Positions 28,439 to 32,111 of a stretch of DNA of 40,611 nt are shown here, piece by piece (within the stretch, counting starts at the first letter, position 1; every line of letters starts with the position of its first letter). A program made the position numbers and the translations under genes. Origin of the DNA: a virus. The stretch covers positions 1-40,611 of IMG/VR virus record IMGVR_UViG_3300036832_001037. The stretch is one strand, 5' to 3'. The notes below the pieces were generated by a model that was not told the DNA's origin, did no database searches, and saw only the letters and a program-made list of their open reading frames with translations.

Positions 28439-28450
28439 ATCGAGAGGATC
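28439..28450 (+). promoter_or_regulatory. Cassette leader 1 (ATCGAGAGGATC)
   Basis: Ends five nt before ATG 28456. GAGAGG acts as ribosome site; the flanking bases are conserved beyond what that needs. Confidence 0.78.
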
Positions 28451-28455
28451 ACCGA

Positions 28456-28875
28456 ATGTCCACCGAGTACCTGTTCACCGCCACCTTTGAGCATGATGGG
28501 GTCGAGACCGCCACGGTCGAGACCGGCCACGCCGACGACGTTCGCAGGATCATCGTCCGTTGGGGTGAGGATCACGGCCAGTGCATCGGTGGCGACGCCC
28601 TGCAAGCCACCGTTGACCGGGCGAGCGGGACGTTTCAGTCCGGCCTGTTCACCTTGAGGATCGGCCGTCGCGAGATGCCTACGCCGACGCCGGGTGTCAC
28701 GACGATCCAGATTGACGTTCCCGGCCGATGCGGCGTCTACGTGTTCCGGCCGTCCCGCCCGTGGGGCCTGTTTGCGTCGCAGGAACACGCTCGGTGGCTA
28801 CTGCGGGAAGACTTCCCGGACGGGACGGCAACCCTGTTCGCCGGTCTGGCGATCGTCGGCACGGTCACGCTCTAG
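28456..28875 (+). CDS. Cassette protein 1, 139 residues, unknown function
   Basis: ATG at 28456, first cassette gene. Beta-rich N-terminus (STEYLFTATFEHDGVETATV) with a repeat-like second half (TIQIDVPGRCGVYVFRPSRP). No family recognised. A conserved hairpin element begins at its stop codon. Confidence 0.72.
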   Translation: MSTEYLFTATFEHDGVETATVETGHADDVRRIIVRWGEDHGQCIGGDALQATVDRASGTFQSGLFTLRIGRREMPTPTPGVTTIQIDVPGRCGVYVFRPSRPWGLFASQEHARWLLREDFPDGTATLFAGLAIVGTVTL

Positions 28876-28929
28876 CGGAGCGGACGCGACGGCCGGTCTA
28901 GATGGCCGACCGTTGCGCCCGTTCACTGG
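28874..28929 (+). ncRNA. Post-stop structured RNA element, copy 1
   Basis: Begins with the AG of the stop codon: AGCGG...CGC-G-ACGG stem, loop TAGAT, complementary strand CCGT-T-GCG and CCGTT. Including G-U pairs the stem covers about 20 positions with two A-C mismatches. Same framework as 30158 and 31682. No T-run. Confidence 0.68.
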
Positions 28930-28939
28930 ACCGGGATCT

Positions 28940-28951
28940 ATCGAGAGGATC
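28940..28951 (+). promoter_or_regulatory. Cassette leader 2 (ATCGAGAGGATC)
   Basis: Identical to leader 1, three nt before ATG 28955. Confidence 0.78.
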
Positions 28952-28954
28952 GAA

Positions 28955-29809
28955 ATGCCGAAGTATGAGAAAACGGACGTCTACGCTGAGGTGACCGATC
29001 GGATCATCGCGGCGCTTGAGGAGGGCACGGTGCCGTGGCGCAAGCCGTGGAGCGCGCCGGGCGAAGCTCCCCGTAACCCGGTCAGTGGGACGGTTTACCG
29101 GGGTATCAATCCGTTCCTGCTCGAATTGACGGCGAGCGCGTGCGGCTACTCGGACCCCCGTTGGCTCACGTTCAAGCAAGCCGCCGGTCTGAACGCGAAG
29201 GTCCGCAAGGGCGAGCGGTCGACGCTTGTCGTTTTCTGGAAAATGCTCCGGGGTGTTGACGAGAGAACGGGTGAGCTTCGGACGATTCCGATGCTTCGCC
29301 ACTATCGCGTTTTCAACGTGGCACAGATCGACGGTCTGGACCTTGAACCGATCGGCGAGCTGGCCGACCACGAGCCGATCGACGCGTGTCAGTCGATCAT
29401 CGCCGGGATGCCGTCGCGGCCGACGATCGGCCACGGTGGCAATTCCGCGTTCTACCATCCGGCATTGGACGCCGTGCAGTTGCCGGAGTTGGGCTCGTTC
29501 GTCGACCCGGAGGCTTACTACGCAACCGCCTTCCACGAGCTTGTCCATGCGACCGGCCACGAGTCGCGGCTGGACCGTGGGCTGGACGGGTCGCACGCGT
29601 TCGGGTCCGGCGAGTACGGCAAAGAGGAATTGGTTGCCGAACTAGGGGCAGCGATGATTTGCGGGCAGGCCGGGATCTCGCCCGCCACGGTCGACCGTTC
29701 CGCGTCCTATATCGCGTCGTGGCTTCGGACCCTCAAGGCGGACCCGAAAATGCTCGTGGGCGCCGCCGGGAAGGCTCAGAAAGCCGCCGATTGGATTCTC
29801 GCCGTCTGA
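28955..29809 (+). CDS. ardC: ArdC-type antirestriction protein, 284 residues
   Basis: ATG at 28955. N-terminal ArdC ssDNA-binding domain (~1-125; VTDRIIAALEEGTVPWRKPW, YRGINPFLLEL, LTFKQAAGLNAKVRKGER) and C-terminal zincin-like polyvalent metallopeptidase domain with HELVH at 194-198 and a downstream Glu (KEELVAELGAA) as likely third zinc ligand. ArdC proteins of plasmids and phages protect incoming DNA from restriction. All key residues seem present. It is followed by a hammerhead ribozyme. Confidence 0.88.
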   Translation: MPKYEKTDVYAEVTDRIIAALEEGTVPWRKPWSAPGEAPRNPVSGTVYRGINPFLLELTASACGYSDPRWLTFKQAAGLNAKVRKGERSTLVVFWKMLRGVDERTGELRTIPMLRHYRVFNVAQIDGLDLEPIGELADHEPIDACQSIIAGMPSRPTIGHGGNSAFYHPALDAVQLPELGSFVDPEAYYATAFHELVHATGHESRLDRGLDGSHAFGSGEYGKEELVAELGAAMICGQAGISPATVDRSASYIASWLRTLKADPKMLVGAAGKAQKAADWILAV

Positions 29810-29820
29810 GCCGTTCTGAC

Positions 29821-29884
29821 GGGCGAAACCCTTTCGGCCTAGTGTCGGCAGGGTCGACGGTTAGATAGCCGTCCTGATGAGCCC
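29821..29884 (+). ncRNA. Type II hammerhead ribozyme 1
   Basis: Order GGGC (stem II) - GAAA - stem III (29829-29853, CCCU/AGGG with inner GCC/GGC) - UC - stem I GACGGUU/AGCCGUC, loop AGAU - CUGAUGA - GCCC (stem II). Core positions fit fully: G12 A13 A14 = 29825-29827, A15.1 (29828) with U16.1 (29854), C17 = 29855, C3-A9 = 29874-29880, G10.1-C11.1 = 29881-29824. Predicted cut between 29855 and 29856, 58 nt before ATG 29914. Confidence 0.9.
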
Positions 29885-29895
29885 TAGACCCACCT

Positions 29896-29907
29896 ATCGA
29901 GAGGATC
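29896..29907 (+). promoter_or_regulatory. Cassette leader 3 (ATCGAGAGGATC)
   Basis: Identical to leaders 1 and 2, six nt before ATG 29914. Stays on the 3' product of ribozyme 1. Confidence 0.78.
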
Positions 29908-29913
29908 AACCCT

Positions 29914-31138: not shown

Positions 31139-31201
31139 GGCGAAACGTCCGGCCGCGCGAGCCCCGGACGTCTACGGCTAATCGGCCGTACTGACGAGCC
31201 C
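31138..31201 (+). ncRNA. Type II hammerhead ribozyme 2
   Basis: GGGC (31138-31141) - GAAA (31142-31145) - perfect 7-bp stem III CGUCCGG/CCGGACG - UC (31171-31172) - stem I UACGGC/GCCGUA, loop UAAUCG - CUGACGA (31191-31197) - GCCC (31198-31201). A15.1-U16.1 and G10.1-C11.1 are in place. Predicted cut between 31172 and 31173, 50 nt before ATG 31223. Stems differ in sequence from ribozyme 1 while the core is kept. Confidence 0.92.
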
Positions 31202-31205
31202 CGTC

Positions 31206-31217
31206 AACGAGAGGATC
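31206..31217 (+). promoter_or_regulatory. Cassette leader 5 (AACGAGAGGATC)
   Basis: One base different from the consensus, five nt before ATG 31223. On the 3' product of ribozyme 2. Confidence 0.72.
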
Positions 31218-31222
31218 TGAGA

Positions 31223-31522
31223 ATGAGACCCGAAGAAGAAACGATCATGTTGGCCCTGCGCATCGTCGCGAGCGATGCGGTGGCCGACCTGTTGGGCAAG
31301 CGTGGAGTTGGTGACGCTATATCGGACGATGCGGCCGACCTGTATCGAGCGCGCGGCGGTGATATGTCCGGCGAGCCGTTCGCGCTGGGCAGTCTCATTG
31401 ACCCCGCCGAGCTGCGCGACCATGAGGCCCGCTCGGCCTACGACGGCGACGGTCTGTCGCTCGCCGAAGCTCAAGCCGAAGCGCGAGCGACGATCGACGC
31501 TGCGCGCGAGGAGGAGCGATGA
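31223..31522 (+). CDS. Cassette protein 6, 99 residues
   Basis: ATG at 31223. Acidic, helical (EEETIMLALRIVASDAVADLL, LAEAQAEARATIDAAREEER). No family recognised. ATGA overlap with the next gene. Confidence 0.68.
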   Translation: MRPEEETIMLALRIVASDAVADLLGKRGVGDAISDDAADLYRARGGDMSGEPFALGSLIDPAELRDHEARSAYDGDGLSLAEAQAEARATIDAAREEER

Positions 31523-31683
31523 CCTACGCCGAATTGCTAGCCCTACTGGCCGACGCCGACCCGCAGTCGGCCGTGTTCCTCGCCGATCGTCGCTCTGGCG
31601 ACGTGTTCGAAGTGACGTTCGCGATGCAGTCCGACGAGTCGCCGGAGGTGTTCATTTACTCCGACGCGTGGGAAGCCGTCTAG
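31519..31683 (+). CDS. Cassette protein 7, 54 residues
   Basis: ATG at 31519 (ATGA overlap), GAGGAG a few nt upstream. Product MTYAELLALLADADPQSAVF and on to YSDAWEAV, acidic alpha/beta. Short but with strong coupling, and its stop opens the third structured element. Confidence 0.65.
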   Translation: MTYAELLALLADADPQSAVFLADRRSGDVFEVTFAMQSDESPEVFIYSDAWEAV

Positions 31684-31742
31684 CGGGGCGAACGCGACGG
31701 CCGGGTCTCTCAAGGGATCTGACCGTTGCGCCCCGTTCACTG
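31682..31742 (+). ncRNA. Post-stop structured RNA element, copy 3
   Basis: Starts in the stop codon. Stem ACGGCCGGGTC / GATCTGACCGT pairs over 11 positions with G-U pairs and one A-C mismatch. GGGGCG/CGCCCC or AGCGG/CCGTT can close it. Same framework as copies 1 and 2. Confidence 0.62.
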
Positions 31743-31753
31743 GCTCCGGCATT

Positions 31754-31772
31754 TTGAACGGTGTGCTATAAT
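31754..31772 (+). promoter_or_regulatory. Second cassette promoter, extended -10
   Basis: TGCTATAAT (31764-31772) is a perfect extended -10 box. TTGAACGGTGTGC (31754-31766) just before it matches the same region of the first cassette promoter. No good -35. It would drive the last three cassette genes. Confidence 0.7.
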
Positions 31773-31785
31773 TGTATTTCCACCA

Positions 31786-31797
31786 ATCGAGGGGATC
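31786..31797 (+). promoter_or_regulatory. Cassette leader 6 (ATCGAGGGGATC)
   Basis: One base different from the consensus, two nt before ATG 31800. Confidence 0.72.
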
Positions 31798-31799
31798 AG

Positions 31800-32111
31800 A
31801 TGACAAGAAGTCGAGGCGCTGTCGTGACTGCCGTCGAGCGCAAGTACACGATGACCAAGATTGAGGGCGGCGACTATCTGCTGCCCTCCAACGACGGGAC
31901 GATTCTGTGGCGCATCGCGAGCTATCAGGATGGCCGTCACGCCGGGCTTGAGGACGGCCCGGAGTACGTCACGCGGTGGCGCATCCATCGCTGGGCCTAT
32001 CCGATAGGTGACGTCGAGACTCACGCCGACCCGGACGATTGGGAGCAGTGGGTGTACTTCGCCGATGGCTTTCTGACTCGCGCCGAGGCCGTGGAGTACG
32101 CGCTGCGATGA
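31800..32111 (+). CDS. Cassette protein 8, 103 residues
   Basis: ATG at 31800 next to the leader. Polar N-terminus, then IEGGDYLLPSNDGTILWRIA and a Trp-rich beta part (RWRIHRWAYPIGD, DDWEQWVYFADGFLT), then an AEAVEYALR helix. Unknown function. ATGA overlap with the next gene. Confidence 0.7.
   Translation: MTRSRGAVVTAVERKYTMTKIEGGDYLLPSNDGTILWRIASYQDGRHAGLEDGPEYVTRWRIHRWAYPIGDVETHADPDDWEQWVYFADGFLTRAEAVEYALR

Follow-up and report, generated by a model that had tools for sequence, protein, structure and literature searches.

Clusters of hammerhead ribozymes in prophages were described by Perreault et al. (2011; PMC3088659; here as throughout, published work is cited from extracts of the text). 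These hammerheads, some of which are of type II, border single genes or small groups of genes; one set lies beside the anti-restriction gene ardA. Polycistronic RNA is cut by them in vitro and, in the case of one set, in E. coli as well; the authors, who observed this cleavage, proposed that long phage transcripts are processed by it. All three hammerhead types occur in phage genomes (review PMC7761336). Here we analyse a cassette of six gene units on the plus strand (28439–32523) of IMG/VR virus record IMGVR_UViG_3300036832_001037, whose 40,611 bases (68% guanine plus cytosine) are referred to below as the window. Each unit opens with a leader, ATCGAGAGGATC, and each gap between units holds a structured RNA element, either a type II hammerhead or a hairpin that we call element A. 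The window resembles the prophage clusters in the type of its hammerheads, in their position around single genes or short blocks, and in the presence of an anti-restriction gene; it differs from them in its conserved leader, in the alternation with a second RNA family and in the replacement of the elements in a sister phage, none of which is described in the extracts of that paper. Phage hammerhead clusters, also beside an anti-restriction gene, are already known; what is new is the exchange of element type in a fixed slot.

A conserved leader is also a feature of cluster K mycobacteriophages and of Microbacterium phages of cluster EF, in which, as in the window, a strongly conserved repeat resembling a ribosome-binding site precedes a subset of non-structural genes (PMC3203893, PMC7302621). 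In cluster K, an inverted repeat is present just upstream of about half of these start-associated sequences, SAS (PMC3203893), and the role of the repeats is called unclear in both reports. The first-pass annotation of the window had likened the cassette to SAS and to their extended form, ESAS. The analogy is apt, but it does not extend to sequence: the cluster K SAS is a 13-bp repeat at start sites, GGGATAGGAGCCC, different from the window leader. In the ESAS, 17-bp imperfect inverted repeats lie upstream of the SAS; element A is an inverted-repeat hairpin, upstream of three of the six leaders, with longer arms and another sequence. Judged by sequence, the window cassette is not a member of the cluster K SAS/ESAS group, because its leader departs from the SAS consensus and a model of element A found no copy at the SAS sites of phage TM4. 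In the stretches of TM4 and AnnaSerena examined, descriptors found neither a hammerhead nor a tRNA-like element, and the idea that the ESAS of these phages are such elements is unsupported.

In T7, cuts at five sites divide a polycistronic early RNA into mRNAs of one or two cistrons, and we propose cutting of a similar kind for the window. RNase III makes the T7 cuts, whereas the window mixes ribozymes and hairpins. Mitochondrial transcripts are punctuated by tRNAs. Among phages, M3 RNA and C4 RNA are non-tRNA substrates of RNase P (review PMC11143913). In such systems tRNA-like structures within longer transcripts mark cleavage points, as we propose below for the sister phage and for phage Amela; unlike them, the window itself has no tRNA-like element (T-arm plus acceptor-like stem) by descriptor on either strand. 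Among haloviruses, the HF1 group is reported to have tRNA-like sequences as well as a hammerhead, with functions said to need study, but there, unlike in the sister, a tRNA-Thr-like sequence is the attachment site and the extracts describe no between-gene array (PMC7230728). Among the literature matches listed (open-licence PubMed Central, without preprints), in the extracts seen, we found no report of minihelix arrays between phage genes, of a conserved leader combined with a processing slot, of the alternation of two element families, or of the exchange of ribozymes and tRNA-like elements between sister phages.

The cassette and its RNA elements

All six units open with the leader or a one-base variant of it, as had been noticed in the first-pass annotation. 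The leader is exact at 28439–28450 (with the ATG of the first gene, g1, 5 nucleotides (nt) downstream), 28940–28951, 29896–29907 and 30236–30247, and has one mismatch at 31206–31217 (AACGAGAGGATC) and 31786–31797 (ATCGAGGGGATC), always on the plus strand. With up to two mismatches allowed, the window contains 17 leader matches, compared with a mean of 3.9 in 100 shuffles (largest, 10). One of the leader-like sequences, TTCGAGAGGATC, with one mismatch, lies outside the cassette (20915–20926, minus strand) and is followed, after 3 nt, by an ATG where the integrase probably starts, and the integrase of the sister phage is likewise preceded by a leader, ACGAGAGGATCACCATG; the leader therefore marks genes beyond the cassette.

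A structured element is present in all five gaps between units, always at the upstream stop codon or close to it, and the order from 5′ to 3′ is A, hammerhead, A, hammerhead, A. The remaining four junctions (30656, 31519, 32108 and 32347) have no gap, and all four are 4-nt overlaps. Both observations bear out the annotation, which had recognized three hairpins of one family, two hammerheads and the overlaps; its end point of 32111 is extended to 32523 by the last genes of the operon. Its placement of the elements at or near the stop codon can be sharpened: the TAG of the upstream gene is contained within the hairpin in all three copies of A, and the G of another TAG is the first base of hammerhead 2, while hammerhead 1 begins 11 nt after a TGA. 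The modular plan of leader, gene or genes and 3′ RNA element is thus real, and it is kept in one sister phage.

Type II hammerhead 1 (29821–29884, plus strand; predicted cut after 29855) is the element that follows the anti-restriction gene, ArdC, and type II hammerhead 2 (31138–31201, plus strand; predicted cut after 31172) overlaps the end of g5. Both were matched, at 29821 and 31138, by a descriptor requiring the core, a stem II of at least 2 pairs and stems I and III of at least 3 pairs, and in both the core CUGANGA ... GAAA ... UH cleavage site is intact. In the minimum free energy (MFE) fold of each exact element all three helices form, and stem II is the open one, the other two being closed. 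A covariance model built from 32 phage hammerheads, with the window sequences held out, scored hammerhead 2 at 51.9 bits (E 1.5e-12) and hammerhead 1 at 43.4 bits (E 5.7e-10), with no further window match at E up to 0.1; the 32 relatives have 97.6% paired cells, and 151 cells changed on both sides compared with 47 in shuffles. In 1.13 Mb of sequence the descriptor had 110 matches, compared with 1 in one mononucleotide shuffle; most of this sequence had been retrieved with a hammerhead pattern, and the total counts the window (2 matches) and its pieces L001 and L002 (4 matches). The two window hammerheads have little sequence in common outside the core and the pairing. On these sequence grounds the ribozyme identity of both is well supported, and both are predicted to self-cleave.

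Element A is a 60-nt hairpin with 24 pairs at 28871–28930 (stop TAG in the lower stem; z −4.6), a 65-nt hairpin with 25 pairs at 30155–30219 (z −5.9) and a 66-nt hairpin with 23 pairs at 31679–31744 (z −4.3), all on the plus strand, with shuffle z-scores computed on stretches slightly longer than the elements. The copies are alike in sequence from the stop codon onward, and the lower part is strongly conserved among the three. Intercistronic RNase III hairpins of the T7 type have 20 or more pairs. With 60–66 nt and 23–25 pairs, element A fits such a site (about 60 nt, at least 20 pairs, between cistrons), and it is similar in length to the T7 R1.1 substrate, which gives products of 47 and 13 nt (PMC4858673). 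We give cleavage of element A by host RNase III roughly an even chance.

Other identities for element A were considered and rejected. Its best Rfam matches were only microRNA and antitoxin models (E 1 and 1.6), descriptors ruled out a degenerate hammerhead or a tRNA-like element, and an intrinsic terminator is excluded, A having no T run and being absent from the terminator-like sites found. The A model, run over 14 sources, recovered the three window copies together with the same hairpins on the minus strand; matches elsewhere, in TM4 (L302:5412, E 5e-4, within a coding gene), L025 (E 0.33) and L172 (E 0.36), were judged to be chance.

Element types in the sister and in other phages

A portal search returned one relative, IMGVR_UViG_3300005764_000114 (G002; the sister), which is collinear with the window and has 84% identity in the capsid protein, 77% in the portal and 44% in the integrase. 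Its cassette (L179) has seven leaders containing CGAGAGG, followed by an adenine in six and by a thymine in the one before ArdC. A tRNA-like minihelix, consisting of a T-arm (GGTTCGAnTCC) and an acceptor-like stem, is present in all six gaps between units, five being found by descriptor and one by eye; the last is weaker and lies about 50 nt past its stop codon. ARAGORN called no tRNA in this cassette, and the descriptor and models found neither a hammerhead nor element A there. Sister elements 2 and 3 have 15 nt in common, starting at the stop codon. The same sample number is carried by a third phage contig, L054/L300, whose leader is CGAGAGGA and which has two hammerheads.

The ArdC-type anti-restriction protein (28955–29809, plus strand; 284 amino acids, ArdcN plus MPTase-PolyVal; phrog_7245, E 2.5e-80) is the only cassette gene with a clear functional match and the only one recognizably common to window and sister, with 57% identity. 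It occupies unit 2 in the window and unit 6 in the sister, and is followed by a hammerhead in the former and by a tRNA-like element in the latter. In this one sister, what is conserved is the slot and not the sequence of the element, because position and leader are kept while the sister elements are unrelated in sequence and the element type is exchanged. The first-pass annotation had looked to related phages for the gain or loss of whole units. In the case of ArdC the 3′ element and the unit position differ, while slot and leader are kept; leader, gene and element thus do not always travel together. At sequence level the intergenic regions of the sister are unrelated to those of the window, which the annotation had counted against its own proposal, with position and leader conserved.

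At the DNA level, the region 26500–33000 had no similarity at E 1e-5 among 50,697 phage records, and a search of IMG/VR for the last nine leader bases paired with a hammerhead, which the annotation had suggested, gave 0 matches. Hammerheads in the same kind of position are frequent in other phages. The pattern GGGCGAAAC..CTGANGAGCCC returned 76 IMG/VR stretches, 70 of them with a type II hammerhead confirmed by descriptor. In the set found with a pattern free of the leader, an upstream stop codon combined with a downstream Shine–Dalgarno (SD) sequence and start was found for 47 of 79 hammerheads, compared with 8.2% at random, and the stop codon lay within 8 nt before the hammerhead in 54 of the 79. 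In a larger set, which is biased in that it was partly found with a pattern demanding an SD-like leader, 134 of 197 type II hammerheads had a stop within −60 to +12 and, in the 90 nt downstream, an SD followed by a start, compared with 10.6% of random positions. The 197 are counted without the window and its pieces; hammerheads near the end of a locus (14 of 211 in the larger set, 10 of 89 in the leader-free set) and identical copies were dropped, and as only identical copies were removed from these counts, close relatives count more than once.

The SD-demanding scan gave 55 new loci, of which 26 had a hammerhead and 18 three or more, and led to Streptomyces phages of the Arquatrovirinae. In Janus (L172, NC_054660.1 from 30000), ten type II hammerheads were found by descriptor at 11943–19151 on the minus strand, all ten in annotated intergenic gaps of the early operon, and 11 by model (weakest E 0.003). 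R4 (L171, NC_019414.1 from 30000) has three by descriptor and eight by model. Three of the R4 model matches (11784–11841, 14152–14209 and 17104–17161, minus strand) fall within very small annotated genes, gp60.1, gp67.1 and gp75.1, raising the possibility that these are not genes. No hammerhead was found in Amela (L173) by descriptor or model; its early operon has five tRNA-like minihelices by descriptor, four when ARAGORN tRNAs are left out. At one orthologous junction, a hammerhead follows the Janus gene and a tRNA-like element follows its 50%-identical Amela ortholog.

Among at least 120 loci scanned for tRNA-like elements, at least 14 contigs have two to seven on one strand outside ARAGORN tRNAs; in three of those 14, which have 10 or more ordinary tRNAs, the elements may be uncalled tRNAs. 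Arrays of minihelices of about 40–57 nt, between genes and uncalled by ARAGORN, occur in L173 (Amela), L213, L237, L246 and L298. A hammerhead and a tRNA-like element occur on one strand in seven contigs, or in five (L069, L092, L099, L100 and L138) after exclusion of ARAGORN tRNAs. The closest ArdC in the phage collection (50%) is that of the unrelated Manatee Spring podovirus MW202801.1, in whose ArdC cassette a type II hammerhead lies just past a stop codon (L037 21034–21086; model E 4e-5). Type II hammerheads were also seen in L065 (seven in 5.4 kb) and L088 (four in 5.3 kb).

A probable processing slot and its alternatives

Because hammerheads, tRNA-like minihelices and long hairpins are all sites at which RNA is cut, we read the slot as one for mRNA processing. 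That it is conserved as such, and that its fillings either cleave themselves or are of the RNase P/Z or RNase III type, is in our judgement probable. The cassette would be expressed as one early or accessory transcript punctuated by RNA-processing sites, each unit having its own ribosome-binding leader and one to three genes, and in units 1–5 the element placed at, or close by, the final stop codon would bring about an RNA cut. At two junctions the type II hammerhead would cut itself; the upstream mRNA would then end in the stem III hairpin and the downstream one, with its 5′-OH, would begin with the stem I hairpin, so that, from the fold, both new RNA ends would be capped by a helix. At the other three, the imperfect hairpin A would most likely be cleaved by the RNase III of the host, in the manner of the T7 early junctions, and in the sister slots the tRNA-like minihelices would most likely be substrates for RNase P and/or RNase Z. 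The outcome would be mRNAs of one or a few genes, translated and decaying separately; the fixed boundaries would also tolerate gene exchange. We infer the single transcript, the cleavage in vivo, the involvement of host enzymes and the effects on stability and translation.

Several observations weigh against this interpretation. With regard to the hammerheads, Rfam RF02276 scores them at 26.6 bits (hammerhead 2) and 26.0 bits (hammerhead 1), below its gathering score of 37, which is a database threshold and not a structural feature; they are the two best matches of this type II model. In wider context the shuffle z-score is only −0.6 for hammerhead 1 and −1.8 for hammerhead 2, and in the wider stretch the MFE fold of hammerhead 1 is a different, competing one, while hammerhead 2 keeps its canonical fold there too. 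In most type II motifs a pseudoknot is possible between loop I and the tail right after stem II (PMC3088659). By eye, the loop of hammerhead 1 could pair only with 29894–29898 (5 bp), which lie 9 nt beyond that point and extend into the leader, and no such pairing was seen for hammerhead 2. With regard to element A, the three copies have no significant covariation (94.1% paired, compared with 93.6% in shuffles and 35–46% when slid), and no relative was found either with the A model in its 14 sources or in two exact pattern scans of IMG/VR, one of which gave 21 matches, judged by eye to be chance as the rest of the element was missing, and the other 0; the role of A thus rests on shape and position. 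With regard to exchange, only one sister cassette was found. In the Streptomyces phages, moreover, an element frequently has no counterpart at the orthologous junction: where the gene ahead of a Janus hammerhead has an ortholog in Amela, one of two junctions has a tRNA-like element there by descriptor, and where the gene ahead of an Amela tRNA-like element has an ortholog in Janus, one of three has a hammerhead there.

The elements could instead be stabilisers of mRNA or insulators of folding, whose end helices block 3′ exonucleases and keep the leaders free for ribosomes, with cleavage incidental or rare. Element A and the tRNA-like elements are indeed above all stable helices near stop codons. 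For this purpose, however, a simple helix would suffice, whereas the catalytic cores in the window are intact, their strongly covarying relatives are similarly placed, and the T-arm plus acceptor geometry in the sister points to cutting. We regard this explanation as unlikely.

A narrower alternative concerns element A, which, instead of being an RNase III site, might be a self-cleaving RNA of a kind not yet described or might be bound by a regulator from the phage or the host. Its alternation with ribozymes in the same slot would fit such a role, as would the strong sequence conservation of the lower part among the three copies. Against it, no Rfam match rises above chance and the searches made turned up no relatives with which to compare, the fold is a plain extended hairpin, and the conservation may be due to recent duplication; we consider this quite unlikely. 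Least probable, to the point of being doubtful, is that the repeats are mainly exchange sites at the DNA level, where homology of leaders and elements shuffles accessory genes and RNA structure is a side-effect of repeat spread: the different unit positions of ArdC, the lack of other recognizable homologues among the cassette genes, the sequence common to the three A copies from the stop codon on and the 15 nt shared by sister elements 2 and 3 would agree with this, but the window hammerheads offer little homology, the element behind ArdC differs between the two phages, and the resemblance of the elements to RNAs that are cut would be left unexplained.

Cassette genes, flanking features and wider meaning

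The cassette is flanked by minus-strand genes. In a scan of ten window proteins there were matches to portal/head-tail adaptor, major head protein, tail fibre, terminase and integrase, as well as to an Erf-type annealing protein, an exonuclease, a RuvC-like resolvase and an endolysin, and the window is therefore a temperate tailed phage. Besides ArdC, the cassette encodes, all on the plus strand, g1 (28456–28875, 139 amino acids) and g3 (29914–30159, 81 amino acids), neither with a family match; g4 (30252–30659, 135 amino acids; phrog_1915, function unknown, E 1.9e-15), overlapped by the GTGA of g5 (30656–31138, 160 amino acids, with several Cys pairs); g6 (31223–31522, 99 amino acids), overlapped by the ATGA of g7 (31519–31683, 54 amino acids); and g8-g9-g10 (31800–32523; 103, 80 and 58 amino acids), joined by 4-nt overlaps. 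Below the cut-off, g9 has a weak likeness to excisionase or DNA-binding families and g10 to a membrane domain.

A scan of 26900–32700 with the sigma-70 consensus found no promoter. A promoter-like box of the extended −10 type, TTGAACGGTGTGC-TATAAT, is present at 31754–31772 (plus strand) after the third copy of A, its extended −10-like sequence TGCTATAAT occupying 31764–31772; the same box, TTGAACGGTATGC, is found at 28403–28415 upstream of leader 1, and the sister has a counterpart, TTGAAACGGGGTGCTATAATG, before its ArdC. The box TTGAACGGTRTGC, common to 28403–28415 and 31754–31766 and beside −10-like sequences at both, precedes the first and last units. Allowing up to two mismatches gives 4 matches in all against a chance expectation of 2.4, and of these only those at 28403 and 31754 are exact. 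The box may be the site of a common regulator. Downstream of the cassette, a terminator-like hairpin (32556–32589, plus strand) has 15 pairs followed by TTTTCGTT; three terminator-like sites were found in the region, with 4.3 expected in shuffles. At 27496–27567, upstream of minus-strand genes, a 25-bp sequence occurs in two direct copies, 92% alike and 47 bp apart, which are possible operator or attachment-site repeats.

Tentatively, and with somewhat less than even confidence, we suggest that many temperate phages may have accessory operons with a fixed processing slot, in which self-cleaving ribozymes, minimal mimics of tRNA and long hairpins are freely swapped, with the ESAS of other actinobacterial phages as further fillings and element A perhaps as an undescribed processing RNA; the link of the slot to ESAS is offered only as a hypothesis. 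The extracts of the 2011 paper on phage hammerhead clusters leave the purpose of the clusters open. The finding that a single conserved slot holds ribozymes, mimics of tRNA or hairpins of the RNase III type would give these clusters and the SAS/ESAS a common, testable answer, namely the cutting of early polycistronic mRNA, and the named laboratory phages Janus, R4 and Amela make the test practical.

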